Assembly: GCA_002839765.1 (NCBI GenBank)
Contig: PGYR01000027.1
Location: 1 to 38,597, forward strand
Direction: 5' to 3'
Source: Ignavibacteriae bacterium HGW-Ignavibacteriae-4
GTDB taxonomy: Bacteria; Bacteroidota; Ignavibacteria; Kapaibacteriales; UBA2268
Length of the DNA stretch: 38,597 bases
How positions within the stretch are numbered: the stretch's first letter is position 1; every line of letters starts with the position of its first letter. Shown piece by piece: positions 11,704-27,633 of the stretch. A program made the translations under genes and the position numbers. The notes beneath the pieces are model-generated. The model made no database searches. It saw nothing but the letters and a program-made list of their open reading frames with translations, and was not told the DNA's origin.

Positions 11704-12231
11704 GCGAAGATTCTATTTGTCAGAACAAGATTATTCCTTTTCTTCCCTCTTGAAGATTTAAGAGGGCTAGGGTGATTTGAAAAACAAAGTCATTGAGATG
11801 ACCGAAGGGACGCGCTTGCCAAGCCGAAGGCATGAGCTATCTCTTTATCAGAATCAGGATTCACAGAATTGTAGAGACGTATTGCACACGTCTCCAAATC
11901 CCCCAAACCCTCTGAAACCACGTCACTCCTGAACGAAGCGAAGAGTCTAGGTAACTATCTCTTTTGTCTGAATCACGGATTAATTGGATTTATGGATGGC
12001 ACAGATTGTAGATACGAAATGCTCGTGCTAAGCGGCGACAAAGTATTAACGTCAACAAACACCTTGATGAACCACGTCATTCGAAATAGCTCTCGAATCC
12101 CAAGAAATAGACTGTTGTATTTCTCACACACTTTTGCAACGATAAACCCAAAATAATCTAAATTTACCGCAATTGTCATATACTCCATTCAAAGTCAGTT
12201 AGTTATAAATATAATATATCAAAAATAATTG
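11704..12231. repeat. Gene-poor mosaic of dispersed-repeat fragments
   Basis: No convincing gene lies here. It holds several recognisable repeat pieces: hairpin CCCTCTT-(8)-AAGAGGG (11745-11766) followed by CTAGGGTGATTT; a GTCATTGAGATGACCGAAGG segment (from 11789) ending in CTATCTC; a TTTATCAGAATCAGGATT segment (from 11844); hairpin GAGACGT-(7)-ACGTCTC (11874-11894); CGTCACTCCTGAACGAAGCG (from 11931) followed by AAGAGTCTAGG; TTTGTCTGAATCACGGATTA (from 11963); and hairpin ATTCGA-(8)-TCGAAT (12079-12098) within a further CGTCATTC-like piece. These resemble short intergenic repeats common across Bacteroidota and relatives (recognised from memory). The order suggests repeated insertion and decay. 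Confidence 0.6.
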
Positions 12232-12239
12232 TATATTTG
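12232..12239 (+). promoter_or_regulatory. Candidate -7 promoter element of the acyltransferase/ELWxxDGT operon
   Basis: TATATTTG fits TAnnTTTG exactly. With initiation a few bases downstream it would leave a short leader before the ATG at 12264; the alternative TTG start at 12237 lies within the element. No clear upstream TTG at the right distance. Confidence 0.4.
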
Positions 12240-12263
12240 GGAAACAATATCAGAGACTTAAGT

Positions 12264-12839
12264 ATGACATCATTTTACACAGAAGAAGAACTTAAAGAAA
12301 TTGGCTTCAAATCAGTTGGTACAAATGTCCAAATCAGCCGAAAAACCTCCTTATATGGTGTGTCACGAATCTCAATTGCCAATAATGTCAGAATAGACGA
12401 TTACTGTGTACTCTCAGGAGGAGCAGGCGGTATAGAGATAGGAAACTATGTCCACATTGCTATATTCGTATCGCTCCAAGGAGACGGAAAGATAACCCTA
12501 GAAGATTTCAGTGGCATCTCATCACGGACTGCAGTTTACTCAAGCAATGATGACTATTCCGGGAATTATATGACTAACCCAACAGTCCCGTCCGAATTTA
12601 CAAAAGTTACATCAGCCCCAGTTACATTACAGAAACATGCTCTAGTCGGAAGTGGATGTGTTATATTACCAGGAGTTACTCTACAGTTAGGATGTGCCGT
12701 TGGTGCTCTCAGTTTGGTCAATCGAGACTGCAAGGAGTTTATGATTTACTCAGGTAACCCAGCTAAACCAATATTGATAAGAAACAAAAACCTATTAGAA
12801 CTCGAAAAGAAGTTAAAAGAGAAAATTCAAATTAAATAA
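12264..12839 (+). CDS. Left-handed beta-helix (hexapeptide-repeat) acyltransferase
   Basis: 191 residues from the ATG at 12264, giving the MTSFYTEEELKEIGFKSVG beginning typical of this acetyltransferase group. The body is made of hexapeptide repeats ([LIV]-G-x4): VGTNVQIS, IANNVRIDDYCVLSG, IEIGNYVHIA, ITLEDFSGISS, VGSGCVILPGVTLQLGCAVGA. YSSNDDYSG and GNPAKPI match the catalytic loop and the C-terminal cap of CatB/WcaF-like O- or N-acetyltransferases using acetyl-CoA. It is expected to act as a cytoplasmic trimer on a sugar or sugar-nucleotide. A C-terminal amphipathic helix ends it. It lies only 15 bp before the first ELWxxDGT gene and probably shares its transcript. Confidence 0.82.
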   Translation: MTSFYTEEELKEIGFKSVGTNVQISRKTSLYGVSRISIANNVRIDDYCVLSGGAGGIEIGNYVHIAIFVSLQGDGKITLEDFSGISSRTAVYSSNDDYSGNYMTNPTVPSEFTKVTSAPVTLQKHALVGSGCVILPGVTLQLGCAVGALSLVNRDCKEFMIYSGNPAKPILIRNKNLLELEKKLKEKIQIK

Positions 12840-12842
12840 TTC

Positions 12843-12907
12843 AGGAGTGAGGACATGAAATATTTTATAACAGTTTTACTTATTATACTACCATCCTATA
12901 TGTTTGG
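12843..12907 (+). repeat. 65-bp perfect direct repeat, copy 1 (tail remnant, RBS, start, signal peptide)
   Basis: Bases 12843-12907 are identical to 14908-14972. The first 8 bases (AGGAGTGA) correspond to the Glu-stop end of a T9SS tail in copy 2, but here no such gene precedes; upstream is the acyltransferase. The rest covers the ribosome-binding site, the ATG and the first 17-18 codons. Confidence 0.9.
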
Positions 12908-14915
12908 TCAAACGAATGTGATAGAGCCATTGCAAGTCGATTCACAAACATTAAATCCAGGTACATACGCGCAAACTATAGTCCACAATGGATTACTATA
13001 TTTTACAGCTGATGATAGTGTTCATGGGGAAGAAATCTGGACATTTGATGGAACATTGAATAGCTTAAAAATGCTAAAAGATGTGAACCCAGAAAGAGAT
13101 AGTCAAGCAAGATTCATCAGCAATGAACTTGAAGATTATATGCTATTTACAGCATACTATAACAAAGAAGGTGATTTTGGTTTGTGGTCAACCAATGGTA
13201 CTGAGGAAGGTACCAAATTGCTACAGAAAATGAACTATAAATTAGGTAGTAATATATCAGATTATGTACAAGCTGGAACGAATTTTATAAAACATGGTGA
13301 CAAAATCTATTTTGTTGCTAGTTTAAGCCAACTTACTAAATATGATATATGGGAAACAGATGGTACCCCCGAAGGAACAAAAATTTGGAAGAACTTAGAT
13401 TCTGTATATAATTTTAGTAGTTCAGTTCTTACAAAAGTTGGAGATAATCTTCTAATTTGGTTCAACGGAACTGGATCATTAACTTATCAAGGGATATTTG
13501 AAGTTGATACAAAGAATTCGAAGTTAATTAAATTAGTTAATGCTAAGTTTAATCAACTGGCGAGCAACAATGAAGAGTATTATTACATAAAGAATGATAA
13601 ACTTTATTTTACTAAGGAGAAGTCAGAATCAACTAATCATCTGTGGGAAACCGATGGTACACCACAAGGTACTTACAGAATAACAAAGGACATAGACAGT
13701 CTAAAAATTGATATAAGTAGCAGAATGTTTTTTGGTAACAAAACACTATTCAATGCTTCTCAAGGTATAAATAAAGCTGAATTATGGATATCTGATGAAA
13801 CTAATGAAGGTACATTTTCACTAACGAATCATTTAGATGGATTTGATTATTTAGGGTTTTCGTCTGAGTTATTAAAAGGCAAAGTAGTATTTACTGGTTC
13901 TCGTGGTAATATATTTGAAATATGGATAACAGATGGTACAAAAGAGGGAACTACCTTGGTAAGCCAGATAAACAAAGGTGATTCTGATTTTCTATTTATA
14001 TTATCGAATGAGAAACCTGATAATGACAGAATATTCTTTAGTTTATATGGTGTGAATAATAAATACAAAGATATTTGGGTAACGGATGGCACCAAAGAAA
14101 ATACAACTAAGTTGATTGATTTGAATATTTCGTTCTATAATAAACTCAAATACAGAAGTGATGGTAATAAACTTTACTTTACAAATGAACTTAACCAAAC
14201 CGGTGAAGAACTTTGGGTGACAGATGGAACAATCGAAGGCACACAATTTGTAAAGGAATTGAGAGAGGGAACTGATAGTTCTGATATATCATTTCCATCA
14301 AGAGTGATAAATGGGAGAGGGTTTGTAAAGGCAAGAACTGATAAGACTAATTACTCTTTAATTTTAACAGGAGATCCCCAAAGTGTTTCAGTTAGAATAT
14401 GTAATGCAATGTCAGAATCTAAAGGATATACACGCATCCAGCAATTAACAGAGAACAAGGCGATTTTTATAGAGAAAAGTAGTTCTGATACGAATAGGAT
14501 TTGGATTACTGATTATACTTTTAAAGGTACTAATTTATTAATACCACTCGACGCTACTAATAATAATCAAGCTAATGGATTGATAGCATATTTTCAGTAC
14601 AATGATAACATATACTTCTTCGCTGACTACTACGGCGAGGGACAACAACTCTACCGCATCCCCAACACAATAACTTCAGTCGAAGAAAGCGAACAAACTG
14701 AACTAATGACAGTTTACCCGAACCCTGCGAAGGACTTCATTCAGATAGAGGTTACTAAGCCAATGCAGCTGAGTATAGTAAACACCACTGGTAAGAAAGT
14801 GAAAGAGTACGGAACAGTAGAGAACGGCAAGCTGAACGTAGCAGAGCTACATTCGGGCGTGTATTTCGTGGTAGATGAGCAGGGTAAGAACATAGCAAAA
14901 TTTGTGAAGGAGTGA
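12855..14915 (+). CDS. Secreted ELWxxDGT-repeat protein with T9SS type A sorting domain (array member 1)
   Basis: 686 residues. A signal peptide (1-18, ending YMFGQ) is followed by about ten ELWxxDGT-type repeats spaced 45-65 residues apart, for example LWSTNGTEEGTK, DIWETDGTPEGTK, EIWITDGTKEGTT and ELWVTDGTIEGTQ; some are worn (IFEVDTKNSK, ELWISDETNEGTF). Such repeats are thought to form beta-propeller or beta-sheet folds of unknown function. The last ~80 residues are a T9SS type A C-terminal domain: VYPNPAKDFIQIEV, LSIVNTTGKKVKEYG, LNVAELHSGVYFVVDEQG and the end AKFVKE. It should be exported by Sec, cross the outer membrane by the T9SS and be cleaved and anchored or released. It is the first of five tandem paralogues; its stop overlaps the ribosome-binding site of the next gene. 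Confidence 0.92.
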   Translation: MKYFITVLLIILPSYMFGQTNVIEPLQVDSQTLNPGTYAQTIVHNGLLYFTADDSVHGEEIWTFDGTLNSLKMLKDVNPERDSQARFISNELEDYMLFTAYYNKEGDFGLWSTNGTEEGTKLLQKMNYKLGSNISDYVQAGTNFIKHGDKIYFVASLSQLTKYDIWETDGTPEGTKIWKNLDSVYNFSSSVLTKVGDNLLIWFNGTGSLTYQGIFEVDTKNSKLIKLVNAKFNQLASNNEEYYYIKNDKLYFTKEKSESTNHLWETDGTPQGTYRITKDIDSLKIDISSRMFFGNKTLFNASQGINKAELWISDETNEGTFSLTNHLDGFDYLGFSSELLKGKVVFTGSRGNIFEIWITDGTKEGTTLVSQINKGDSDFLFILSNEKPDNDRIFFSLYGVNNKYKDIWVTDGTKENTTKLIDLNISFYNKLKYRSDGNKLYFTNELNQTGEELWVTDGTIEGTQFVKELREGTDSSDISFPSRVINGRGFVKARTDKTNYSLILTGDPQSVSVRICNAMSESKGYTRIQQLTENKAIFIEKSSSDTNRIWITDYTFKGTNLLIPLDATNNNQANGLIAYFQYNDNIYFFADYYGEGQQLYRIPNTITSVEESEQTELMTVYPNPAKDFIQIEVTKPMQLSIVNTTGKKVKEYGTVENGKLNVAELHSGVYFVVDEQGKNIAKFVKE

Positions 14916-14972
14916 GGACATGAAATATTTTATAACAGTTTTACTTATTATACTACCATCCTATATGTTTGG
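14908..14972 (+). repeat. 65-bp perfect direct repeat, copy 2
   Basis: Identical to 12843-12907. Here the first 8 bases are the real end of array member 1 (last Glu codon region and TGA), followed by the 4-base gap and the start of array member 2. The identity stops at the 18th codon. Confidence 0.9.
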
Positions 14973-16809
14973 GCAGTCCAATTTGGTAGAACCTGAACTT
15001 GTCTCCGAAGAAGTTTTTGTAAAAGGGGATTTCAATAATAATAATAATGATCAAAAGTATATATTTAAAGATAAAATATATTTTTGGGGTGCTGATGATA
15101 CTCATGGTAGTGAGCTATGGGTGAGTGACGGAACTCCTATTGGTACTTATATGCTCAAAGATTGCACCCCCAACGGTAATTCTGAAATATTTATATTCAA
15201 GGCAAATCTAGATAAATTAATTTTTTCAGTAAAAGATGATAATGGTAAAGGTAGTCTATGGGCAACAGACGGTACAAAAGCCGGTACGGTGCTTCTAGCT
15301 AATGTATTTGTTCAGGCTGGATTTCCAGTTCCAATTGAGCAGGAGTCACAAGAAAATTGCGGGAAAATTATATTTGCTGGTGATGATGGTGTCCATGGTA
15401 CTGAGCCTTGGGTGACAGATGGCACTCCCAATGGTACTTATATGATACAGGATTTGGGTGTTGATGGTGGTTCTAGTCCATGGTTTTTTTCGAAAGCTGG
15501 GGATAGATTCGTATTCACAACTAATCAGAATGTAGGATTCAGATCCGTGATTTGGTCAACCGATGGGAGTAAAAATAGTTGTAATCGTATGTTCCAAGGT
15601 AATGAAGGGCAATCAGATATTATTGATATTGGCTTAGCGGGGCTATTACTTATTATTAATTCATTTTCTGACCCAATCTCTAATTCGGGATATACCTTGC
15701 TCTCTATCACTGATGGAACGCTCGATGGCACTATACCAATTCTTGGTCAAGATAAAACTCTAACGGGTTACCCGACTAAATTCACAAAGATTAAAGATAA
15801 GGTTTATTTCAGTTTATTTGGTGGTTGGAATAATGAACTATATGTGACCGATGGAACTGATAAAGGAACTGTACTTTTATTAGAAGCCGAAGATGCACTC
15901 CAAGATATTGTTAACTGGAATGATAAACTCTTATTTCATGTGAATTACAAGGGAAACTTTATAAGTGACGGTACTAAAGACGGGACTTTCGAAATCAATG
16001 ACCTAACCGATGAATCAGTATATTTCGAAGAATACTTTATAATGGGTGATAAGTTATACTTCAGTGATTATGCAGTTGAAGAGTTGTTTTCTATATGGGT
16101 GAGTGATGGAACTAAAGCTGGTACACGTAAAATAAAAACAATGAATGAGCCTAATGAAGACATTCAATTTGGTTTTATGAATAGCTTTGATGGAAAAGTT
16201 GTATTCTATTACTATGAATCATTTACTCCGGGTGAATTATGGATTACAGATGGTTTTGAAGTTGGTACAAAACAAGTTGCAGAGTTTTCATTTATAAAGA
16301 ATTTCAAAAATTATGGGTTTAGAAGGGTAGAGCAATTCGGTGATAATTTAGTAATAATACCTAGCTATCAATTTAAAGAAAATTATATGTTCTTGTTAGA
16401 TAAAGAGAGTGAGTTAACAAGAGTAGAGCCGGTTGGAGCAACTAGAGCAAACAAATATGTATTCGAAACTGGAGCGACTATTGTTGGAGAGATGAAGGGG
16501 TATCTTTATTTCGTGGCAAATTACTTCGATACTGGCGAACAGCTTTGGCGAATACAAGTCGGTGATACAACAACGAAAGAAGAGCCAATAATACCATACG
16601 ATTATAAACTATACCCTAACCCTGTTGTTGACTTTGTGAATATAAATATGGAGAACTGTGAGAGTGTTACTATATATAATAGCACTGGCAAAAGAGTAAA
16701 TGAAGTAAAAATAAATGATGGAAGAATCAATGTTTCCTTACTTTACCCCGGAGTGTACTTCGTTGTAGATGAGCTGGGCAAAAACATAGCAAAATTCGTG
16801 AAGGAGTGA
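14920..16809 (+). CDS. Secreted ELWxxDGT-repeat protein with divergent T9SS tail (array member 2)
   Basis: 629 residues. The signal peptide is DNA-identical to that of member 1 for 53 bp. About nine repeats, e.g. ELWVSDGTPIGTY, SLWATDGTKAGTV, EPWVTDGTPNGTY, ELYVTDGTDKGTV, SIWVSDGTKAGTR and ELWITDGFEVGTK. Its sorting domain is the odd one: LYPNPVVDFVNINMENCESV and VTIYNSTGKRVNEV differ from the other four, yet the last 19 residues (from GVYFVVDELG to AKFVKE) return to near identity. This suggests partial gene conversion of the extreme end, or strong selection on it. It starts 4 bp after member 1, with AAGGAG formed by the last codons of that gene as its ribosome-binding site. It is followed by an unrelated gene after 49 bp. 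Confidence 0.92.
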   Translation: MKYFITVLLIILPSYMFGQSNLVEPELVSEEVFVKGDFNNNNNDQKYIFKDKIYFWGADDTHGSELWVSDGTPIGTYMLKDCTPNGNSEIFIFKANLDKLIFSVKDDNGKGSLWATDGTKAGTVLLANVFVQAGFPVPIEQESQENCGKIIFAGDDGVHGTEPWVTDGTPNGTYMIQDLGVDGGSSPWFFSKAGDRFVFTTNQNVGFRSVIWSTDGSKNSCNRMFQGNEGQSDIIDIGLAGLLLIINSFSDPISNSGYTLLSITDGTLDGTIPILGQDKTLTGYPTKFTKIKDKVYFSLFGGWNNELYVTDGTDKGTVLLLEAEDALQDIVNWNDKLLFHVNYKGNFISDGTKDGTFEINDLTDESVYFEEYFIMGDKLYFSDYAVEELFSIWVSDGTKAGTRKIKTMNEPNEDIQFGFMNSFDGKVVFYYYESFTPGELWITDGFEVGTKQVAEFSFIKNFKNYGFRRVEQFGDNLVIIPSYQFKENYMFLLDKESELTRVEPVGATRANKYVFETGATIVGEMKGYLYFVANYFDTGEQLWRIQVGDTTTKEEPIIPYDYKLYPNPVVDFVNINMENCESVTIYNSTGKRVNEVKINDGRINVSLLYPGVYFVVDELGKNIAKFVKE

Positions 16810-16810
16810 T
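16788..16810 (+). repeat. 23-bp T9SS-tail direct repeat, left of the 16.9-kb gene
   Basis: This is the true 3' end of array member 2 (codons for A-K-F-V-K-E, the stop, and one base). It matches 18601-18623 at 22 of 23 positions, so the unrelated gene between them is bracketed by two copies of the tail end. Confidence 0.85.
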
Positions 16811-16858
16811 ATTATTTCATTATATTAAGATATTATAATAATCAAAAAATGAGGATTT

Positions 16859-18589
16859 ATGAAAGCAATTATAATTACAGCATTGTTAACTTTAATATTT
16901 AGTAGTGCATACGCAATCGACATACCTGATGATTTTGCCCCTATAGAAAATAGTGCTGAAATACTTTTTTCTTATGAATTCGATGACCCACCCGTTTTTA
17001 TTTCGAAAATTGATGATAATAAAGTGATTATCGGTACTAAAACTCGAGAAGAAATAGGACTCTTTGTATATGACAATAAAACAAATGAGATAAATGAAAT
17101 AGGTGAACTAAAAACAAGTATGGTAGAAAGAATGCTATCCCATAATGTTGAAAATAACAAGCTAGTTCTGGTAATGACTGGTGTTGTTGGGTTTGGGGTT
17201 TTTAGCAAAGGAGATTCGTATGCTAGAAAGATTGTGTATGATATTAATAATGAGAAAATAGAAAAGAACGAATTACTTTTCCTATTCCAATCTTCAAAAT
17301 TAGATGATGATGAAATAATGGATGAGTTAGAACTAACCAAGCTTGATGCGACAGTTAATCGTGTAGATGCTGAAAAGTATTTTACAGATAATGATATCGC
17401 AATAAACTCACTTCCAATTGCTTTAGAGATTTCACCAAATATTAATAATTTCAATAATCCTATGTCAATGGGGCTCTCATTTTACCCAGATAGTAAAGAT
17501 GAAAATGTTTTATTGTTAGCCGGACTTACAGAGAATGGGGTCGGCATAAAGACTATCAAATATAAAAAACTAAAAGAAGTTGAAAATCTGATTATACACT
17601 ATGCTGATTATAATAGTGAAGCTGTAACATTTTTAGCTGAGTGGTATAATCCAGAAACTGAGAAGAATTTTATGTCATTGAACAAGATAACTAAGGATGG
17701 GAAAATAAGTGAAACAGTTAAAGAATTACCTTTGAATCCGGACTATCGTTTCCAAAAGTTTGCTCCAATTGAGAAAAAAGAAAATGGAAGTTTAAAATTG
17801 TTCGGATATGCTGAGAAATTTCCAAACGGTTCTAACTTTCTAGATTATATTTTTGAACCTGGCAAAAAATTTGATTTCGGCGACCACTTTAATAATTTAG
17901 CTGAAGTGTCTCACTTTGCAATGATTAATGCAAATTTGAATACATTGGAATTTGAATTAACTGTGAAGCCAATAGAAGAAAGCCTTAAGAATAAGCCAGA
18001 ATTCAAAGATTTGGAATTAGTAATTAATAATATAAATAATGTAATGCAAAAAGATAATCGACTTGTAATATTTGCTGAAAACTCATTTTTCAGTATGAAG
18101 CAGGAATCAGGTAGTAAGTCTAGTTTTGAGACAAATCCAAGAACAGGCAAATCAGAATTTAAAAGTAGTTCATATCCAATGATCGTTACCAAATATTATT
18201 TTAGAAATATAAACTTATTCTCGATTGATAATGATATGAATCTTCTTTGGTCATCTGAGATTGAGGATCGGGATTTGGTAAAAGATATTAGTCCGTTTGA
18301 TATTCCTAATGCGATGTCAAATAAATTACCAGAAGAACTTTATCTAAAACCTACAATAACGGATAATGACATTACTTTTACTTATACAACTACCGAACCG
18401 GAAGATGAGATACGAAAAGTGAAATTCAGCTTAGTAGATGGTAAGAAATTAGAAGAAGTCTCACTATTTAATAATGATGGATATGCATCATATACTCCAG
18501 GCCAACAAATAGGTATGGGACAGAATATATATGGGACTATACTAAATCTAGATGATTATTATTTTGTGAAATACAAACTGAACAAGTAA
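16859..18589 (+). CDS. Secreted protein of unknown function embedded in the ELWxxDGT array
   Basis: 576 residues. A clear signal peptide (MKAIIITALLTLIFSSAYA, cleavage near 19) leads to a beta-rich, acidic protein with no ELWxxDGT motif and no T9SS tail of its own. I do not recognise a family. Strand patterns such as KVIIGTKTREEIGLFVYDN suggest a propeller-like periplasmic or surface protein, but this is weak. A GAGG ribosome-binding site precedes the ATG. It lies 49 bp after array member 2 and 99 bp before member 3, same strand. Its stop (TAA) is followed in the same frame by ten codons ending K-F-V-K-E-stop, the tail of the sorting domain, so its present 3' end lies beside the remains of an array gene. 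Confidence 0.8.
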   Translation: MKAIIITALLTLIFSSAYAIDIPDDFAPIENSAEILFSYEFDDPPVFISKIDDNKVIIGTKTREEIGLFVYDNKTNEINEIGELKTSMVERMLSHNVENNKLVLVMTGVVGFGVFSKGDSYARKIVYDINNEKIEKNELLFLFQSSKLDDDEIMDELELTKLDATVNRVDAEKYFTDNDIAINSLPIALEISPNINNFNNPMSMGLSFYPDSKDENVLLLAGLTENGVGIKTIKYKKLKEVENLIIHYADYNSEAVTFLAEWYNPETEKNFMSLNKITKDGKISETVKELPLNPDYRFQKFAPIEKKENGSLKLFGYAEKFPNGSNFLDYIFEPGKKFDFGDHFNNLAEVSHFAMINANLNTLEFELTVKPIEESLKNKPEFKDLELVINNINNVMQKDNRLVIFAENSFFSMKQESGSKSSFETNPRTGKSEFKSSSYPMIVTKYYFRNINLFSIDNDMNLLWSSEIEDRDLVKDISPFDIPNAMSNKLPEELYLKPTITDNDITFTYTTTEPEDEIRKVKFSLVDGKKLEEVSLFNNDGYASYTPGQQIGMGQNIYGTILNLDDYYFVKYKLNK

Positions 18590-18622
18590 GCTGCTGTTAA
18601 AGCAAAGTTCGTGAAGGAGTGA
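18590..18622 (+). pseudogene. Remnant of a T9SS sorting-domain 3' end
   Basis: Eleven codons directly after and in frame with the TAA at 18587-18589: A-A-V-K, then A-K-F-V-K-E and TGA. Bases 18601-18623 match the 3' end of array member 2 (16788-16810) at 22 of 23 positions and are similarly close to the ends of members 1, 3 and 4. It has no start codon or ribosome-binding site. It is best read as what is left of an array gene whose body was lost or replaced. Confidence 0.75.
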
Positions 18623-18688
18623 TTGTTTTTTATAATTATAAAAATATTAAATTAAATAAAAAATTATTATCTATAGGATCAAAAAATT

Positions 18689-20521
18689 ATGAAATATTTA
18701 ATACTTATTTTTTGCTTTATTAGTATACTAAATGCTGATATTAATGACCGAATAGTGAAGATGGCGATATCTTCAGAAAATAACATGCCTCAGTTTGTTG
18801 AGTTTAGTGGTAAATTATTTTTCGCTAATTCTACTTCGTCGAATGATGAAACAGTTTGGGTAACTGATGGTACCGTTGAAGGAACAAAAAACTTGGAGGA
18901 ATTTTCAAATTTTCCAACCGGCGAAAAGCCATTTATAATAATAGATGATTTAAGTAAATTAATCATTTCTACAAATAAAGGAATGTGGGCTACTGATGGG
19001 ACCGATGCTGGTACTCAAAAGTTTACAGACCATCTTCTGAGAGGTGTCTGGACTTATTATAATTGGAACAAAGGTAGAAATGCTGTAATTAGTAATAATA
19101 TTTTAATACAAGCTTTTAGAGAGGTATTTAAAAAGGATATATTTATAACAGATGGAACTGCAAAAGGAACTAAAACTATTTTCGACAATGAAAAACTCAT
19201 TAATTTGAACAAAACTAGTAAACTCAAGAACAAATTTATTCTTACTATAGAATCAGAATTGGATAATAAATACTATTATTATTCACTTGACGCAACCACT
19301 CTTGATACATTTAACTTTCTGGTTAATGACACTAAGATAGAGATATCTAACGAATACAAGAATAAGATTTACTTTTTACAATCCCACACCGATACTACTT
19401 GTGCACTATGGTCTTCCCAAGGAACTATTGGTACTAATGAAATAGTGGCAATTATTCCTACTAGAGGCGTAACCCAAGATTCATATTTCAAACTATACAA
19501 CGATAAACTTTTCTTTACTGTTCTTGACACGGGGTATGTTACGACTCTGTGGCAGACAGATGGTACGAGTGCAGGAACAAAGAAAGTGTCAGAGATATTC
19601 AATACAAGTGTAAATTATAAGCCAAAGTTTATAGAATTCAAAGATAGATTATTGATTACTAATGATAATTTTGAAAGTATTATTTGGATTACTGACGGTA
19701 CAACTAATGGAACATTTGAGTTAATAAATAGAGGACATAATGATGAATCTTTGATTAAAAGTTATTCCATCATTAGGAATAAACTTTTTACAATAAAAAC
19801 AGATTCGGAGGGAAGGTCTTTCCCCGTTATATCGGATGGTACTAAGGAAGGAACAAGGGAGATTAAGATTCAAAATATGGAAAGTGAAATGGCCAGTATT
19901 CCATTTTTGGAGGATTATGTAGGGAATCATGCAATATTTCAATTTAGAGATAATGAAGACATGATTAATCTAGTGGTATCAGATGGTACAGATGAAGGTA
20001 CGACAGTGTTTAATAGATATAACAGTAATACCTTTTATATAATTAATTCTGCAACAATTTTTGAAGATTATGTGATATTCACCGACAATAGTGATAAGAA
20101 TAAATTTAAAACTTATAATCTCGTAACAGGTGAAAGAAAAGAATTGAAACCTGCTAATGCCACTGTAAATGAATTCCGTAACTCCACACTAGGGAGTCAC
20201 ATTTACAAAGGTGATTTTTACTTTTTTGCGAAATATTCTGAAGATGGGGTGAGTTTATGGAAGATTGAAGGTACTCAAACCTCAGTCGAAGATAACCCAC
20301 AACCAGAACTAATGGCAGTTTACCCCAACCCCGCGAAGGACTATATACAGCTAGAGCTAACGAAACCAATTCCGCTGAGTATAGTAAACACCACTGGTAA
20401 GGTAGTGAAAGAATTCGGCATAGTTGATTACGGCAAGCTTAACGTGGCAGGGTTACACTCAGGCGTGTATTTCGTGGTTGATGAGCAGGGAAATAACATA
20501 GCAAAGTTCGTGAAGGAATGA
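18689..20521 (+). CDS. Secreted ELWxxDGT-repeat protein with T9SS type A sorting domain (array member 3)
   Basis: 610 residues. The signal peptide (MKYLILIFCFISILNA) begins MKY as in members 1 and 2 but differs in DNA. About eight repeats: VWVTDGTVEGTK, MWATDGTDAGTQ, FITDGTAKGTK, TLWQTDGTSAGTK, IIWITDGTTNGTF, ISDGTKEGTR, VVSDGTDEGTT and a worn LWSSQGTIGTN. The sorting domain has VYPNPAKDYIQLEL, LSIVNTTGKVVKEFG and the AKFVKE end. A 28-bp stretch of its tail (20374-20401) is identical to member 1 (14768-14795), though the cores are far apart. A short repeat-to-tail link (YSEDGVSLWKIEG) replaces the YYGEGQQLYRIPNT link of members 1, 4 and 5. Its ATG has AGGATC upstream and its stop is 4 bp from the next start. 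Confidence 0.92.
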   Translation: MKYLILIFCFISILNADINDRIVKMAISSENNMPQFVEFSGKLFFANSTSSNDETVWVTDGTVEGTKNLEEFSNFPTGEKPFIIIDDLSKLIISTNKGMWATDGTDAGTQKFTDHLLRGVWTYYNWNKGRNAVISNNILIQAFREVFKKDIFITDGTAKGTKTIFDNEKLINLNKTSKLKNKFILTIESELDNKYYYYSLDATTLDTFNFLVNDTKIEISNEYKNKIYFLQSHTDTTCALWSSQGTIGTNEIVAIIPTRGVTQDSYFKLYNDKLFFTVLDTGYVTTLWQTDGTSAGTKKVSEIFNTSVNYKPKFIEFKDRLLITNDNFESIIWITDGTTNGTFELINRGHNDESLIKSYSIIRNKLFTIKTDSEGRSFPVISDGTKEGTREIKIQNMESEMASIPFLEDYVGNHAIFQFRDNEDMINLVVSDGTDEGTTVFNRYNSNTFYIINSATIFEDYVIFTDNSDKNKFKTYNLVTGERKELKPANATVNEFRNSTLGSHIYKGDFYFFAKYSEDGVSLWKIEGTQTSVEDNPQPELMAVYPNPAKDYIQLELTKPIPLSIVNTTGKVVKEFGIVDYGKLNVAGLHSGVYFVVDEQGNNIAKFVKE

Positions 20522-20525
20522 GGAA

Positions 20526-22415
20526 ATGAAGAAGATTATAATAGTAATATTAATAATGATATCGTTTAGTTCAATTGTTCAGGCACGGTCAATAGAGCCT
20601 CAGATTCACAGTGACATAAAGCTTGTTGTTCGTGATTCAACTTATGACTTTGTCGAACATAATGGGCTAGTTTATACTATTGCAGACGATGGAGTTCACG
20701 GAATTGAACTTTGGGTTTTTGATGAAAACCTAAATAGTTTAAGAATGGTTAAAGATATAAATCCCATAGGCGATGCGAACCCATTAGTTTTTAGTTCGGT
20801 GCTTGAAAATGTTCTCTTATTCTATGCTTATGATGAAAACGGAACTGGGCTATGGGCTACAGATGGTACAGAGGTAGGAACTGTACTCTTAAAGTATTTT
20901 TATTTTTATGAAATCAAAGCCAATATAATGGATCCAAAATGGAATTTATTTAAAACTTATAAAGGTGAATTATATTTCAATGGCATTGAGTCAAAGGATA
21001 AAACTTATGAGCTTTGGAAAACGGATGGGACAGCCGAAGGAACTATACTTGTAAAAGAATTGAACCCAAATGGCTCGTCTAGTCCGGGGCAGTTTCATAT
21101 AAGAGAGGATAAACTATTATTCCAAACGTATAATGGGTTCAGAGATATTTGGGCTACAGATGGTACAGAAGAAAGCACAATTAATCTGACGAATAGCAAA
21201 GATAAATTGAGACCAGTTAGTATTATTGGTTGGAATTCCACCCATGACTTCTTCCTTGATAGTCTCGATGGTAAACTCGAATTATGGTCAACAGATGGTA
21301 CTATCAGTGGGACACTACCATTGTCTATTAATTTAGATGAAATAATTGAACTTAATTCTAATATGATATTTATTGATAAAAATTTGTATTTCGAAAGCTT
21401 TACAGAAGATGGGAGTATAGTCCTGAATATAAGTGATGGTACACAAGCAGGAACTAGAAAGCTAAAGACAATTACTTCGGAACCAGATGCTGGTATTTTT
21501 TTCATTTCCTATTATAATACTGGCGAACAGAAACTATTCTTTTACACTTATGAAAACAAAAAAAATAGTCTTTGGGTTTCAGATGGTACTGAGCAAGGAA
21601 CTATTAAGATTTCACCACCTGAATTAGTTAACATTAACAGAAATAAAGAAAGTTTAAACACAGACAAATTGTTTTTTTCGAGTTTTGGTGTTGATAAAGG
21701 TGATGAACTATGGGTATCAGATGGGACACAATTAGGCACCCATTTTGTTAAAAAGCTATCTGATGGAGGAAATAGTTCAAGAATAGAATTTACATCAGAT
21801 GTCATTGACGATAAAGTGCTTTTCTATTATAAAGCTGATAATGGTGTTGGCTCTACTTGGATTACAGATGGAACAGAAACGAGTACTTATATTTTAAATC
21901 CAAATCTTATGTTTATATCTCGAATGTATTTCTCTGATAATCAATTCAATAATATTCTCTTCTTTACTGAAGTTAGTAGTGCAGATACTACTAGGATGTG
22001 GCAGACTAACATGACGCTAGCTGGCACAAGCGTAATAATGCCCCAAAATCAAAGCAATAATAAACATATCAATCCATATCTATTTTATCAAATCGAATTC
22101 AAAAACCACATCTACTTCTTAGCTGACTACTATGGCGAGGGACAACAACTCTACCGCATCCCCAACACAATCAGTTCAGTCGAAGAAAGTAAGCTGCCAG
22201 AACTAATGGCAGTTTACCCTAACCCCGCGAAGGACTTCATACAGCTAGAGATTAGCAAGCCAATGCAACTGAGCATAATCAATAGCACTGGTAAAGTAGT
22301 GAAAGATTATGGTTTAGTAACAGTCGGTAAGCTGAACGTAGCTGCACTAATCTCAGGTGTGTACTTTGTAGTAGATGAGCAGGGTAATAACATAGCAAAA
22401 TTTGTGAAGGAGTAG
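20526..22415 (+). CDS. Secreted ELWxxDGT-repeat protein with T9SS type A sorting domain (array member 4)
   Basis: 629 residues. Signal peptide 1-21 (ending IVQARS). About ten repeats, e.g. LWATDGTEVGTV, ELWKTDGTAEGTI, DIWATDGTEESTI, ELWSTDGTISGTL, SLWVSDGTEQGTI, ELWVSDGTQLGTH and a worn RMWQTNMTLAGTS. The link YYGEGQQLYRIPNT shares 38 identical bases (22134-22171) with member 1 (14634-14671). The tail has VYPNPAKDFIQLEI, LSIINSTGKVVKDYG and SGVYFVVDEQGNN. Base composition steps up at the link: 29 G/C in the 60 bases 22141-22200 against 15 in 21601-21660. It is coupled to member 3 (4 bp gap) and member 5 (3 bp gap). Role as for member 1: surface or released protein, ligand unknown. Confidence 0.92.
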   Translation: MKKIIIVILIMISFSSIVQARSIEPQIHSDIKLVVRDSTYDFVEHNGLVYTIADDGVHGIELWVFDENLNSLRMVKDINPIGDANPLVFSSVLENVLLFYAYDENGTGLWATDGTEVGTVLLKYFYFYEIKANIMDPKWNLFKTYKGELYFNGIESKDKTYELWKTDGTAEGTILVKELNPNGSSSPGQFHIREDKLLFQTYNGFRDIWATDGTEESTINLTNSKDKLRPVSIIGWNSTHDFFLDSLDGKLELWSTDGTISGTLPLSINLDEIIELNSNMIFIDKNLYFESFTEDGSIVLNISDGTQAGTRKLKTITSEPDAGIFFISYYNTGEQKLFFYTYENKKNSLWVSDGTEQGTIKISPPELVNINRNKESLNTDKLFFSSFGVDKGDELWVSDGTQLGTHFVKKLSDGGNSSRIEFTSDVIDDKVLFYYKADNGVGSTWITDGTETSTYILNPNLMFISRMYFSDNQFNNILFFTEVSSADTTRMWQTNMTLAGTSVIMPQNQSNNKHINPYLFYQIEFKNHIYFLADYYGEGQQLYRIPNTISSVEESKLPELMAVYPNPAKDFIQLEISKPMQLSIINSTGKVVKDYGLVTVGKLNVAALISGVYFVVDEQGNNIAKFVKE

Positions 22416-22418
22416 AAA

Positions 22419-24290
22419 ATGAAAAATCTAATAATATTATTGATATTAGTACCATTCTATTTGTTTGGTCAAACAAATATTTTAGAACCGGAGTTACATT
22501 ATGAAAATAAATTTCAAGGCAATACTGGTGCTTATGATTTTGTTATAAAAAGCAACAAAGTATATACGGTTTGCGAAAATTATAAAAAGACAAATGAGCT
22601 ATGGGTATTTGATGAAAATAAGAATAGCATGGAAAGACTTTTTGAGAGCATTTCTTTTGAAACAAGTATAAATATATTAGGTACTGAATTCGATGGAATA
22701 ATAATATTTAGTGTTCATGAAGTATTCAAAGGCTCTTTATGGAGAACAGATGGAACAAAATCTGGAACATATATGATAATGGATTTAAGCGTTAGAAATT
22801 TAGAATCTATAATGTTTAATGGATATTTATATTTTACTGCAGCCGATGAACCTGGTGGTGATTACGGCTTATGGAGAACAGATGGTACTACCTTAGGTAC
22901 ATCTTTAGTTAAGTATGTTAAAGATAAACGTAGAGGTGAAGCTTTTGATTTCCATATTCTTAATCAGAAACTAATCTATACTTTTGCTACTGGATATACA
23001 GATACTGAAGCCGAACTATGGGTAACTGATGGAACAGAAGGGGAGACTAAAAGATTGGCATCTATGGTAATGTCAGGTAGATTAATGACAGAAGTTATTG
23101 GGGGTAAATTAGTTTTTGCTCATACTCCTTACCCACCATTCGATTCCGAACTATGGGTAACTGACGGTACTGCTGAAGGGACATCACGTTTAGACGATAA
23201 ACTAGGAATTGTTAGTATTGATATCAATCAATTTGATATATTTAATAACAGATTATACATAAGTATGAGCAAAGATAAAACTAGTAATGGACCTTGGGTG
23301 TCTGATGGTACAGTAGCGGGCACTTCATTATTATTAAGTAAAAATCAAATTGAATGTTCGAATCCAATATTCTTCCCATTTCATTCAAATCAAAAGGATA
23401 AATTAATGTACTTAGCTGTAGAAGAAGGACCTTTATACAGTATTATGTTAACAGATGGAACAATTGATGGAACCTATGCAATAACTTCCGGTAATGATTT
23501 ATTTAAAGTTGATGACTATAATTTTTCCTTATCGGAGGATAAATTCTATTTTCTAAACTCAAATTATAAAATTGGAAATGAACTTTGGGTCTCAGATTTT
23601 ACGAAAGAAGGTACTCACCTAGTTAAAGATATTGAGGAAGGTGAAAAATCAGCTATTATCCGATTCACTGGGGTTAATTTTAAAGGTAAAACTATTTTTA
23701 GTAATAGAGATGAAAATGAAATGAATTCTATATGGGTGACTGATGGTACTGAAGTGAATACTTTTATTTTAAATGATGAATTAACAAATCTTCCAGAAAA
23801 AATAGGTAACGGTAAGATTATAAATGACTTTGTCTTTTTCACTGAAAACACTACAACTAACCTTAAATCTCGTTTATGGAGAACTGATATGACAAAAGAG
23901 GGAACTTCTTTAATCCAAACACTTGATGCAACAAATAAGGAACAAATTATTGGTGGAAATACTACGGTAGCTTTCAAAAACCATATCTACTTCTTCGCTG
24001 ACTACTATGGCGAGGGACAACAACTCTACCGTATCCCAAACACAATCAGTTCAGTAGAAGAAACCCCACAACCAGAACTAATGACCGTTTACCCCAACCC
24101 CGCGAAGGATTTCATACAGTTAGAGCTAAGCAAACTAATGCAGCTTAGCATAGTCAATAGCGCTGGTGCAAAGATAAAGGACTACGGTATAGTTGATAAC
24201 GGCAAGCTAAACGTAGCAGAGCTACGCTCCGGAGTGTACTTTGTAGTTGATGAGCAAGGTAAAAACATAGCAAAATTTGTAAAGGAGTGA
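22419..24290 (+). CDS. Secreted ELWxxDGT-repeat protein with T9SS type A sorting domain (array member 5)
   Basis: 623 residues. The signal peptide (ending YLFGQ) and the mature start TNILEPEL resemble members 1 and 2. About ten repeats: SLWRTDGTKSGTY, GLWRTDGTTLGTS, ELWVTDGTEGETK, ELWVTDGTAEGTS, PWVSDGTVAGTS, MLTDGTIDGTY, ELWVSDFTKEGTH, SIWVTDGTEVNTF and RLWRTDMTKEGTS. The first repeat (ELWVFDENKNSME) pairs with ELWVFDENLNSLR in member 4, pointing to a duplication that kept repeat order. The tail has VYPNPAKDFIQLEL, LSIVNSAGAKIKDYG and AKFVKE. It begins 3 bp after member 4, whose last codons (AAGGAG then TAG) provide the ribosome-binding site. It closes the array; 169 bp then precede the TPR operon. 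Confidence 0.92.
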   Translation: MKNLIILLILVPFYLFGQTNILEPELHYENKFQGNTGAYDFVIKSNKVYTVCENYKKTNELWVFDENKNSMERLFESISFETSINILGTEFDGIIIFSVHEVFKGSLWRTDGTKSGTYMIMDLSVRNLESIMFNGYLYFTAADEPGGDYGLWRTDGTTLGTSLVKYVKDKRRGEAFDFHILNQKLIYTFATGYTDTEAELWVTDGTEGETKRLASMVMSGRLMTEVIGGKLVFAHTPYPPFDSELWVTDGTAEGTSRLDDKLGIVSIDINQFDIFNNRLYISMSKDKTSNGPWVSDGTVAGTSLLLSKNQIECSNPIFFPFHSNQKDKLMYLAVEEGPLYSIMLTDGTIDGTYAITSGNDLFKVDDYNFSLSEDKFYFLNSNYKIGNELWVSDFTKEGTHLVKDIEEGEKSAIIRFTGVNFKGKTIFSNRDENEMNSIWVTDGTEVNTFILNDELTNLPEKIGNGKIINDFVFFTENTTTNLKSRLWRTDMTKEGTSLIQTLDATNKEQIIGGNTTVAFKNHIYFFADYYGEGQQLYRIPNTISSVEETPQPELMTVYPNPAKDFIQLELSKLMQLSIVNSAGAKIKDYGIVDNGKLNVAELRSGVYFVVDEQGKNIAKFVKE

Positions 24291-24459: not shown

Positions 24460-27400
24460 ATGACGAATTCTAAGATACAATTATATCTTGTTTTTCTCTT
24501 CCTCGGATATTTTGCAGCTTCGGCGCAAGTAACCGAAACTAGCTATATTTATAATGCTGAAGAGTTAGACAAAGCGATAAGGCTATACGATACTAAGCTT
24601 ATTAACCTGAGCGAAAGGAAAATCAGCGATGTTATCCGCAATATGCCTGAGAATCCTGCCAATGATAAAGCTCTGATGTTCGAAACCGAACTAGACTTAA
24701 TCAAGGGCAATTTCCATATAGCCGAAACAAAGCTTCTTGACTTCATAAAAGTTAGGAATAATTCCCCGTACGTTCCTGTAGCTTATTTCCGAATTGGTAT
24801 GATGCATTTCAGACAAGAGAAGTTTGAAACTGCTACTTACTATCTGAATTTCGCTTACGAAACGGCTACTGAGAATTACAATAGCCGCCACGAGAAGAAA
24901 AACAGCAGACCCGATGATGAATATTATACTATTGGTCATCATTCATTGTATTGGAAAGGGATAGCTGAAAGCCAAATCAACAAGCAAAAAGTAGCTAAAG
25001 AAACGCTAGAGAAATGCGCTGAGATATATCCAGAGGGCGAATTTTCTGATGATGCTATTTACGCTTATGGTCAGTTATATGAGCAAGAATTTGAGAATGA
25101 AAAGGCTATTGCGGCTTTCAAGAAAGTAAGAATCGAATATCCAAAGACTAATGTTTATATAGCTTCTCTTATTAGAGAAGCGAATAATTATCTGATTTTG
25201 CGAAAGTACCCAGATGCACTTTTAGTTCTAGAGCGTGCGAATTTTGCTGCTTTGAGTATATTAGAGCAAGACTCAGTGGGTAAGCAATACGAAAAGCAAA
25301 CTAATTTTGAGAATCCTCAAGAGGCAATACTTTACCTACGAGGGGAAGCGAGTAATCTAGCTGGTAATTATAGCCAAGCTTTGATGTATTTCGAGACTTT
25401 CCAGAATACTTTCTTCGGCTCGCCATTAGAGTATAAGAGCAAGTTGGGTGCTGGTTGGGCTTTGCTGAATTTGGAAAGATACAAAGAAGCATTGGCGTAT
25501 TTCGATGATATTATCAAAAATTCTGGTGATGATTACTTACAAGTGAAGTACAATGCTCAGCTATACAGAGCTGTAACACTAGTTAAGTCAGGCGATATAG
25601 AGACTGCCAAAACGGAATTGGACGCCCTTTCTCTTAGCACTTCTTTCCCTTTCAAAGGGGCTGTATTACTTGAGTTGGGACAGATTTATTACAAAGAGAA
25701 AGATTATGGCCAAGCAAAAACTGTATTGCAAAGAGCAGAGCGTTACGCACTAACTCCTGTTACTGCTACTCGGATTAACCTCCTATTAGCTGCAACTCAC
25801 ATGGAGCTTTCTGAGTGGAGTTCAGCTACTATAACTTATGATAAAGCAATACAAACAATTAAGAATTCTGACTATGTGCTAATGCCTAAGAAAGATTGGT
25901 ATATGTCAGAAGCTAGATTCAGAAAAGGTGTTTCGCTTGTTATGGATAAACGTAGCAACGAAGCTATTGCATCACTTTCGGCTTATGTAGCAGATGCTAA
26001 AAAAGGCGACCCTAGAACGGAGGAAGCTCTATTCTGGTTGGCAGAGGCTAACTATGCGAGTGATTTGCTTAATAATGCGGCACAGTCCTATGAGAAATTG
26101 CTGAAAGAATATCCTTACCATACTAGAAGAGAGGACATACTATACTCTTTGGGTTGGTCTTATTTCAGAAGGCAGAATTTCAAACAATCAAGCAGAATAT
26201 TCGAACAGTTATTAAGCGAGTTCCCTAAGACGCAGTATGGAGTGGAAGTTCTAGTCCGTCAAGCTGACGGTTATCACATGATAAAGTCTTATTCTAAAGC
26301 TGCCGAGTATTACAAAAAAGCTGCCGATTTGGGACCCAAAACGGATGAAGGTAGATATGCTGCTTTCCAAAGAGCAGATGCACTATATAGATTAGGTAAC
26401 TACGACCAATCGCTTGTAGCTCTTCAACAATTCGTTAAAAACTACAGTGGAAGTCCATTAGCTCCGAATGCAATGTATCTTGTCGGTTGGATCAAATTCC
26501 AACAAAGAAAGTACGACGAAGCTGTTGCGAATTTCAACTTCCTAATAGAAAGATACCCGAGTAGTACTTATGTACCGCGTGCTTATTATGCGATTGCAGA
26601 TTGCTATTATAATAAGAGTGATTTCGAGCAAGCTATGGTAGCTTATAGAAGAGTAGTTGACAAATTTCCATCGAGTGGATTAGCTCCCGAAGCTATGCGT
26701 AGCGTTCAGCAATGTCTGATATTGCTCGGTAGAGAAGACGAAGCTGTTGGGATAATAAATGATTATGTAGAGAAAAACGAAGATTCGCCTTTCACTCGTA
26801 GCTTCCGTTCTGATGGAGCGAGAATACTTTTTGATACGAAAAAATACGATAAAGCTATAGATGAATACGGTAAGATAATAAAAGCTGACCCGAATAACCC
26901 AGAGAATGCAGAGATACTATATTGGATAGGGAAGAGCTATATAAGTATGGATAAGAAATTGGAAGCTGAGAACGCTTTTATAAAAGTTCAGAAAACGTAC
27001 CCACAAAGTGACTACGCTAGTTTAGCTCTTATGGAAAATGCACTATTACAAAAAAGCAGTGCAAGTGGTAAAAAAGCAGATTCGCTTTTTGCTTCACTTA
27101 TACAATTATACCCTAATGAAAGTTCAGCATCTAGAGCCGTATTCGAACGTGCTTTGATTAACTTCACTTTAGGAGATACAGCATTTGGATTGAAAATGTA
27201 CGATTATGCCGTTCAAAACTACCCAGGTGATGAGTATTCTGATGAATCGGCTTATCGTTTAGCTAGTTATTACAAACGTATAGACAGCAACGCTAAGGCA
27301 AGAGATTATTTCCTCAAATTAGCACTCAATAGTAAGAGCAATGAATTTGTAGCTGAGTCATATTACAGAATAGGTGAGCTTTGGAAAAAAGAAAAGCAAT

Positions 27401-27633
27401 TAGAACAAGCAGAAGCAGCGTACCTACAAGTTAAGAATAACTACTCTGGTTACGAAGATTGGTTCTCACTTTCATTAGTGAATTTGGGTGAGATATACGA
27501 ACAACGCAAAGAGTTTCTGAAAGCAAAGGAAATATATTCGGCACTATTAGAATTGCGTCCAGACGATGACTATGGTAATACTGCTAAAGCAAGAATAAAG
27601 AGAGTAAATCAGGCAATAAAGAAAGATGAATAA
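24460..27633 (+). CDS. Large periplasmic tetratricopeptide-repeat protein
   Basis: 1057 residues. A signal peptide (about 1-23, ending FAASAQ) leads into tandem helical TPR pairs along nearly the whole length. Clear units include VAYFRIGMMHFRQEKFETAT (about 103-122), AIYAYGQLYEQEFENEKAIA, MYLVGWIKFQQRKYDEAVA and YYAIADCYYNKSDFEQAM (both near 670-730), many with the FPxS or YPxS spacing of YbgF/BamD-like repeats. There is no lipobox and no membrane helix after the signal. It probably acts as a scaffold between outer-membrane and peptidoglycan partners. It is the first gene of a coupled operon: its end overlaps the barrel gene by 8 bp. No Shine-Dalgarno sequence is visible at its ATG. Confidence 0.88.
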   Translation: MTNSKIQLYLVFLFLGYFAASAQVTETSYIYNAEELDKAIRLYDTKLINLSERKISDVIRNMPENPANDKALMFETELDLIKGNFHIAETKLLDFIKVRNNSPYVPVAYFRIGMMHFRQEKFETATYYLNFAYETATENYNSRHEKKNSRPDDEYYTIGHHSLYWKGIAESQINKQKVAKETLEKCAEIYPEGEFSDDAIYAYGQLYEQEFENEKAIAAFKKVRIEYPKTNVYIASLIREANNYLILRKYPDALLVLERANFAALSILEQDSVGKQYEKQTNFENPQEAILYLRGEASNLAGNYSQALMYFETFQNTFFGSPLEYKSKLGAGWALLNLERYKEALAYFDDIIKNSGDDYLQVKYNAQLYRAVTLVKSGDIETAKTELDALSLSTSFPFKGAVLLELGQIYYKEKDYGQAKTVLQRAERYALTPVTATRINLLLAATHMELSEWSSATITYDKAIQTIKNSDYVLMPKKDWYMSEARFRKGVSLVMDKRSNEAIASLSAYVADAKKGDPRTEEALFWLAEANYASDLLNNAAQSYEKLLKEYPYHTRREDILYSLGWSYFRRQNFKQSSRIFEQLLSEFPKTQYGVEVLVRQADGYHMIKSYSKAAEYYKKAADLGPKTDEGRYAAFQRADALYRLGNYDQSLVALQQFVKNYSGSPLAPNAMYLVGWIKFQQRKYDEAVANFNFLIERYPSSTYVPRAYYAIADCYYNKSDFEQAMVAYRRVVDKFPSSGLAPEAMRSVQQCLILLGREDEAVGIINDYVEKNEDSPFTRSFRSDGARILFDTKKYDKAIDEYGKIIKADPNNPENAEILYWIGKSYISMDKKLEAENAFIKVQKTYPQSDYASLALMENALLQKSSASGKKADSLFASLIQLYPNESSASRAVFERALINFTLGDTAFGLKMYDYAVQNYPGDEYSDESAYRLASYYKRIDSNAKARDYFLKLALNSKSNEFVAESYYRIGELWKKEKQLEQAEAAYLQVKNNYSGYEDWFSLSLVNLGEIYEQRKEFLKAKEIYSALLELRPDDDYGNTAKARIKRVNQAIKKDE

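Follow-up and report, generated by a model that had tools for sequence, protein, structure and literature searches.

How do neighbouring genes whose cores have little in common come to begin and end with much the same DNA? The question is raised by a 38,597-nucleotide (nt) stretch from Ignavibacteriae bacterium HGW-Ignavibacteriae-4 (contig PGYR01000027.1; here contig C107 of G000, a draft genome of 3.36 Mb in 110 contigs), referred to below as the window. Its forward strand, on which all features given here lie, carries an array of genes, A to E, for proteins with ELWxxDGT (ELW) repeats and a C-terminal sorting tail of the type IX secretion system (T9SS). An earlier note, made from the sequence of the window, had proposed that conserved ends of these genes act as recombination handles around divergent cores. 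On comparison with relatives, we consider it probable, at roughly two chances in three, that the array belongs to a type IX-exported β-propeller family shaped by gene birth, gene death and rearrangement, in which homologous recombination spreads the ends.

Results

The five ELW genes lie at 12855–14915 (A, 686 amino acids [aa]), 14920–16809 (B, 629 aa), 18689–20521 (C, 610 aa), 20526–22415 (D, 629 aa) and 22419–24290 (E, 623 aa). These coordinates and the strand, taken from the list of open reading frames (ORFs), were confirmed, and all five proteins exceeded the cut-offs for both the ELWxxDGT family (TIGR04534; curated cut-off 65 bits; whole-protein scores 198.7, 163.3, 85.8, 178 and 147.5 bits for A to E) and the C-terminal T9SS sorting domain in two libraries (TIGR04183 and PF18962). 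The array is not purely one of ELW genes, however, as a sixth, unrelated gene, X (16859–18589, 576 aa), which has neither an ELW repeat nor a T9SS tail, sits inside it.

Common tail DNA, claimed for all five genes, was found in four of them. A 300-nt tail block is common to A, C, D and E, being 81%, 68% and 82% identical to the D copy in A, C and E, respectively; the sorting tails themselves lie at 14712–14909 (A), 20318–20515 (C), 22212–22409 (D) and 24087–24284 (E). Gene B has a divergent tail of its own and joins the block only over its last 62 nt (16748–16809), which are 84–87% identical to the other four ELW genes. When the tail DNA of A was used as a query against the whole G000 genome, its four matches were A, C, D and E. 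The claim of common signal-peptide DNA holds best for A and B: the 5´ handle of A, comprising the pre-start region and the signal-peptide DNA (12843–12928), is 92% identical to 14908–14993 at B, and the first 53 nt of the two genes are exactly identical. Identity falls to 65% in E and 60% in D, and C stands outside this repeat family.

Two exact runs reported in the earlier note are real and not extendable: 38 nt at the core/tail joint of A and D (14634–14671 = 22134–22171), and 28 nt within the tails of A and C (14768–14795 = 20374–20401). Because the genes are homologous, such runs prove little by themselves. When same-residue codons were tested by permutation (10 pairs from the window with 3 statistics, hence 30 tests), p was 0.12 for the A/D stretch overlapping the 38-nt run and, uncorrected, 0.026 for the A/C run that covers the 28-nt match. 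After correction for the 30 tests, two results remained significant, A/B at the signal peptide (p 0.0012) and C/D in the tail (p 0.0014); C/E (p 0.0018–0.002) fell just short.

The stronger evidence comes from synonymous positions, which we measured as the codon mismatch among codons for the same residue, a measure that removes the effect of protein divergence and for which codon usage predicts about 0.55. Among A, C, D and E of the window, the mismatch was 381/684 (0.56) in the cores versus 123/362 (0.34) in the tails (p≤5e-5, column permutation); the gap persisted against conserved core columns alone (196/353), and with B included the values were 0.57 versus 0.36. The core synonymous sites of the window are saturated. 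The same contrast was present in two relatives that carry the array, with 748/1498 (0.50) versus 243/653 (0.37) in genes a to e of G003 (p 0.003) and 164/302 (0.54) versus 43/219 (0.20) in genes 86a to 86c of G001 (p≤5e-5). Tails are therefore less diverged than cores in all three array genomes; equal divergence had been named in advance as an outcome that would speak against the handle idea. Low values were likewise obtained for the segment directly before the tail in the window (0.39, p 0.03) and in G001 (0.37, p 0.046); the window value rose to 0.52 (p 0.23) when B was included, and G003 gave 0.45 (p 0.28), neither of them low. In one ordinary T9SS orthologue pair used as a control, body (60/313, 0.19) and tail (12/69, 0.17) were equally diverged, which argues that the tails of this control are not under synonymous constraint.

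Trees built separately for cores and tails point in the same direction. From 25 ELW-related rows (prefixes w_, 3_ and 1_ for G000, G003 and G001), the core tree kept 21, omitting 1_435, w_C32, w_C80 and 3_C100, and the tail tree kept 19, omitting 3_f, 1_227, w_C80, 3_C100, w_C32 and 1_86B (no tail in contig). The core tree contains the cross-species groups w_D/1_86b, 3_b/1_86c, 3_C58/1_41, 3_f/1_227 and a trio of B genes. The tail tree, on the other hand, unites 1_86a to 1_86c in one clade (99/98) and 3_C58 with 3_C18 in another (100/99). The core data reject both tail clades (p 6e-4 for 3_C58+3_C18; p 1e-53 for 1_86a–c), and the tail data reject 3_C58+1_41 (p 5e-64), although these p values are generous because the clades were picked after the distances had been seen. 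In the underlying counts, the orthologous cores of 3_C58 and 1_41 differ at 109/385 same-residue codons (0.28) and their tails at 20/29 (0.69), whereas 3_C58 and 3_C18, of the same genome and only 25% identical in their cores, differ at 8/48 (0.17) in the tail. As reconstructed from these alignments, core and tail trees conflict in two relatives, with orthologous cores bearing unrelated tails and divergent cores of one genome bearing common tails.

The start of the genes tells a similar story at B. Between A and B, 4/20 same-residue codons differ in the signal peptide versus 56/105 in the core, and between 1_86a and 1_86B of G001 the values are 5/21 and 63/106. The orthologues w_B and 3_B show the reverse, with 8/13 in the signal peptide versus 83/399 in the core. 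Therefore, one core (B) bears different signal-peptide DNA in different species. That of the window matches a neighbouring gene and that of G001 matches the neighbour 1_86a; for the 3_B signal peptide, permutation tests identified no clear donor. From these codon comparisons, the signal-peptide DNA appears to have changed partners at B in the window and in G001.

The locus itself has been rearranged. In G003 (contig C88), gene order agrees with the window on both sides of the array, the flanking proteins are 76–98% identical, and the synonymous divergence (dS) between G000 and G003 is 0.62–1.06 for the eight flanking genes computed. Between these flanks, the window has the order acetyltransferase-A-B-X-C-D-E-TPR (tetratricopeptide repeat) gene, and G003 the order acetyltransferase-a-b-c-d-B´-X´-e-f-TPR gene, with seven ELW genes versus five. 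B´ (3_B) and X´ are clear one-to-one orthologues of B (81% aa) and X (75–77% aa), and G001 has a further B orthologue (75–76% aa) cut by a contig end. The best G003 matches of the remaining genes reach 39% (A), 31% (C), 59% (D) and 42% (E) aa identity, and none of the array genes compared from G003 and G001 exceeds 32% aa with C. E and 3_d (42% aa) are each other's best hit and group as sisters in the core tree (99/96); orthology is possible, in which case the two have diverged far faster than their flanks. The orthologue of D in G001, 1_86b (73–74% aa), lies upstream of B, whereas D of the window lies downstream of B and X. As assembled, gene number and order thus differ between species at a syntenic locus, and the fixed arrangement that would have spoken against the earlier note was not what the relatives showed; these are drafts, and the G001 array is fragmented over contigs.

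Two further peculiarities were seen at this locus. Gene f has no sorting tail in either G003 (C88:19860–21530, L093) or G001 (L099:2453–3568), and a separate tail-like fragment (G001:C227:2316–2456) lies directly downstream of the tailless f in G001. An orphan 22-nt near-copy of the tail 3´ end (18601–18622) follows the stop codon of X; it is found behind X in both G000 and G003, and the version behind X´ is longer. Two candidate results were set aside. Absence of the array from G002 was one, as the flanks stop at contig edges (C108 ends at 6550 and C67 starts inside the right flank); among the matches listed for E, G002 has tails only, and a genus-wide DNA search with the 5´ handle gave no match there. 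Inter-species mosaicism of B was suggested by striking windows of near-identity to G003 (permutation p 0.02 for the longest run and 0.23 for the lowest stretch), and was dropped when the flanking genes 29228, 5966 and 27626 also showed runs (p 0.0008, 0.0036 and 0.0076).

ELW genes also occur outside the array. The core orthologues 3_C58 and 1_41 (78–80% aa) occupy different chromosomal sites. The G003 genes 3_C58 and 3_C18 are flanked by a cytochrome-like gene on one side and a FAD-protein-like gene on the other (L121/L122). A single contig of G000 (C17, L147) carries both flanks in the same orientation, separated by an efflux-type operon. This operon also adjoins the cytochrome-like gene in G001 and G002, where the FAD-like gene is found beside other genes; the site of the efflux-type operon in three species is thus occupied in G003 by two ELWxxDGT genes. 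In G001, 1_41 adjoins an aspartate-semialdehyde-dehydrogenase-like gene, and homology of this flank to G002, G000 and G003 begins at 2089–2090, 63–64 nt past the ELW gene. These functional labels were read off translations, not obtained from family searches. By eye, the roughly 65 nt upstream of 1_41, 3_C58 and 1_149 look alike. The ELW gene 1_149 also has 77 exact nt of tail in common with 1_435 (L100:8039–8653, G001:C435), whose visible 204 aa hold no ELW repeat, a match to which the assembly could contribute because the 77 nt lie at a contig end.

Judged by their sorting tails, the array proteins are T9SS type A cargo, predicted to be exported and anchored at the surface, and hydrophobic N-termini, putative signal peptides, are visible by eye in their translations. 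The structural model of E, built on nine array proteins (pLDDT 77.1, pTM 0.72), shows a large β-propeller plus a tail domain. A Foldseek search with it gave 735 matches at E≤0.001, led by LRP6 and sortilin chains (TM about 0.48 for sortilin). A second structure comparison, which covers mainly residues 32–497 and whose conclusions do not extend to the tail domain, gave Vps10p chains of sortilin and SorLA with Z 10.7–11.4 over 395–420 residues (root-mean-square deviation [rmsd] 5.1–5.7), and an acylaminoacyl peptidase with the top Z of 12.1 over 267 residues (rmsd 8.8). We take these chains to be β-propellers, including those whose entry titles do not say so, and the one model of E accordingly places the ELW core in the β-propeller fold class at the level of prediction. 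By sequence, the tail part matched a lipase chain (7pzj, E 2e-6) and a Por sorting domain (8glj, E 0.003).

G000 has two further ELW loci, C32 and C80; together with the five array genes they form ORFs of 614–691 aa without internal stops, and no silent store was seen. At least 150 T9SS tails are present in this genome (232 candidates, of which 150 were scored, all above the cut-off). Of 296 genomes sampled from the phylum, 23 (counting G000) have ELWxxDGT repeats, and 13 of these exceed the cut-off. Protein E, used as a query, gave matches in 39 of 60 genomes (again counting G000); among the matches listed, long ones occur in G000, G001 and G003, one weaker in G022, and the others are mainly to the tail.

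The array has the layout of an operon-like set of genes for large β-propeller proteins with type IX tails: spacers measure 4 nt between A and B, 4 nt between C and D and 3 nt between D and E, and X is bordered by 49 and 99 nt. At the A–B (14904–14922) and D–E (22404–22421) joints, the tail ends in codons that spell AAGGAG a few nt ahead of the following ATG, and AAGGAA stands at the corresponding tail end of the C–D joint; by its position, AAGGAG may be the ribosome-binding site of the next gene. On the left, the array is flanked by a hexapeptide acetyltransferase-like gene (12237–12839) conserved in G003, and on the right by a TPR protein gene (24460–27633; 96.5% aa in G003) that is weakly PorW/SprE-like (132.9 bits, under the cut-off of 250). 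Upstream of the acetyltransferase gene lie about 530 nt without a long ORF (11704–12236), which in appearance resemble other intergenic stretches of these genomes, such as that behind the cytochrome-like gene in L121. Promoter-like (71 vs a mean of 59.6, sd 7.4) and terminator-like patterns (6 vs 4.9, sd 2.2) were near background. Among the matches shown for two scanned sets (10 and 9 window proteins, part of the window ORFs), there were no recombinase, integrase or transposase families, and PADLOC gave 0 matches for A, D, E and X. Gene X had no NCBIfam or Pfam match, including TIGR04534 and the sorting domains, and its structure model (pLDDT 39.3) was too poor for use; more distant relatives of X (30–36% aa) occur elsewhere in all four genomes of the genus searched.

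Discussion

The pattern is most simply explained if conversion or crossing-over between similar ends spreads tail and signal-peptide sequence among the copies, while unequal exchange adds, removes and reorders genes. The propeller cores would stay old and divergent as the ends spread, with exchange junctions probably at the core/tail joint and close to where the signal peptide ends. Within a genome, paralogues have exact tracts of up to 81 nt in common, which is long enough for RecA-type exchange. Common ends would let any core retain its export and anchoring signals, and a head-to-tail copy may bring its own ribosome-binding site through the AAGGAG in the tail end. As a result, species would differ in their repertoires of surface propellers.

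Several observations weigh against this interpretation. The tails of the window are as far apart from one another (0.34) as from those of G003 (0.37), and they form no genome-specific clade (5 changes for 5 rows). Over all tail rows, clustering by genome is weak, with 57 of 200 shuffles as low (10 of 500 for G001 alone), and the mean proportion of synonymous differences in tails is only slightly smaller within genomes (0.49, 0.58, 0.55) than between them (0.55, 0.57, 0.65). Most single pairs were non-significant in the permutation tests. Breakpoints of nucleotide identity fall at the core/tail joint in 19/19 within-genome pairs, and these are unusable as proof because protein constraint alone predicts them. 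In the core tree, w_C, 3_e, 3_C18, w_A and w_E are long branches, and 1_86c is only 29% filled; moreover, the relative drafts have contig breaks at these tails. Since the signal peptide of 1_86B matches 3_a of G003 over 39 exact nt, the start type of B in G001 may also be an older one kept in both species, not the product of conversion inside G001. The idea of ends as recombination handles has therefore held up in part: tails changed partners in relatives (3_C58/3_C18 versus 1_41; 1_86a–c), as did the signal-peptide DNA at B, but tails closer within a genome were found for 1_86a–c of G001 and C58/C18 of G003 and not for the window. Exchangeable ends are backed by the relatives more than by the window itself.

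Among other explanations, horizontal transfer of ends and whole genes from other strains or species, instead of conversion within the genome, is unlikely. It would account for the closeness of the window tails to those of G003, for the 39 exact nt that the signal peptide of 1_86B in G001 has in common with 3_a of G003, and for the dispersed orthologues, which occupy unrelated places in the G003 and G001 genomes and are preceded by a similar stretch. However, the common tails of 1_86a–c and of 3_C58/3_C18 are genome-specific in this sample, and the inter-species tract tests on B did not rise above some flanking genes.

A more ambitious proposal, which we regard as doubtful, is an active cassette system at the population level in a bacterium not known as a pathogen, in which cores are swapped between ends or moved with their upstream region, and tails are swapped onto unrelated cargo (1_149/1_435). 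That the ends drive core exchange, or that the array varies within a population, would be plausible. What can be said is that this is a hypervariable surface-protein locus.

Synonymous constraint on the tail through codon use, RNA structure or the ribosome-binding site of the next gene could keep tail DNA alike without recombination, and the last ~20 nt, which may overlap such a site, lie in the final 62 nt that even B has. We consider this improbable for the tail as a whole, since orthologous tails can be saturated (3_C58/1_41), the control orthologue shows equal divergence of body and tail, and constraint does not yield conflicting trees, although it could account for the last ~20 nt. Chimeric assembly, with conserved tails joining reads of different genes or strains, has similarly little to recommend it. 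Contigs do end in tails, C58 and C18 overlap by 137 nt, the end of C149 recurs in C435 for exactly 77 nt, and the G001 array is in pieces. Yet the arrays of the window and of G003:C88 each lie on a single contig with conserved flanks, the tails of 3_C58 and 3_C18 differ at several sites and so are not one collapsed copy, and the C58/C18 join is backed by G000, where the two flanks of this locus share a contig and an orientation. Recent tandem duplication followed by fast core divergence under positive selection, without end exchange, would fit head-to-tail genes with strongly different core proteins but is the hardest to credit if the core alignment is right, as core synonymous mismatch stands at the codon-usage expectation (0.56 vs 0.55), which amino-acid selection does not produce, and several cores (w_D/1_86b, 3_C58/1_41 and the B orthologues) are older than the species.

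If recombination among copies is indeed what spreads the ends, these could be either handles that cause core exchange or sequences homogenised after duplication because a tail must fit the T9SS of its own cell. The second view is encouraged by published incompatibility of tails between species: according to section 2.6 of PMC11285876, a Porphyromonas gingivalis cargo failed to be secreted properly when it carried a T. forsythia tail. One tail type spread within a genome could thus keep old, divergent cores compatible with the T9SS of that genome.

The earlier note knew of no described system of this form. Among open-licence papers of PubMed Central (PMC), judged mostly by titles and abstract openings, none on ELWxxDGT arrays was found; however, conserved 5´ and 3´ ends around variable cores are known from the vlsE cassettes and Anaplasma msp2, according to the consulted part of PMC4534519. 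Like the array, Borrelia vlsE and Anaplasma msp2 combine conserved ends, a variable core of a surface protein and recombination between homologous copies (PMC4534519, same part), a description the array fits only partly for B (tail) and C (start). Those systems have an expression site with donor copies and belong to pathogens under host immunity (PMC4534519), whereas each of the five array genes is complete, having a start and a tail of its own, and switching is not known. The Ehrlichia p28/map-1 genes described in that excerpt are likewise tandem, mostly complete surface-protein paralogues, but with spacers of 200–600 bp and reported differential expression, in contrast to the 3–4-nt spacers and T9SS tails found here. 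In P. gingivalis, surface proteins, several of them T9SS-exported, are diversified by domain rearrangement and allelic exchange, as the excerpt used of PMC5266723 describes; these concern adhesin domains and alleles across strains, not tandem β-propellers with common end DNA.

Neighbouring ELWxxDGT paralogues resembling the array occur elsewhere in the phylum, at G240:C23 (L131) and G289:C21 (L132). Of the three pairs formed by the three genes of G240, a distant member of the phylum, one has a low end (last 80 codons 14/73 vs core 259/454) and another a low start (3/19 vs 251/441), the remaining ends (30/52 and 29/50) and starts (6/14 and 5/16) being less clear or saturated. The single G289 pair showed no low-divergence start or end (8/11, 161/241, 22/35). 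The G240 group has another kind of C-terminal ending, and a neighbour without ELW repeats has a similar-looking one.

Cassette systems with conserved ends are already known; the array would be a related case built of T9SS-tailed β-propellers. Draft assemblies break at such arrays, and in gene trees of T9SS cargo the core and the tail are best analysed separately. The usual view of T9SS tails is as address labels. In this family, the DNA of the tail seems to pair with one paralogue or another regardless of which protein it exports. If the spread of one tail type does keep old cores compatible with the T9SS of a genome, tail conversion would serve maintenance no less than diversification, and if cores are also exchanged as cassettes, the lineage could re-equip its surface without altering its export machinery.

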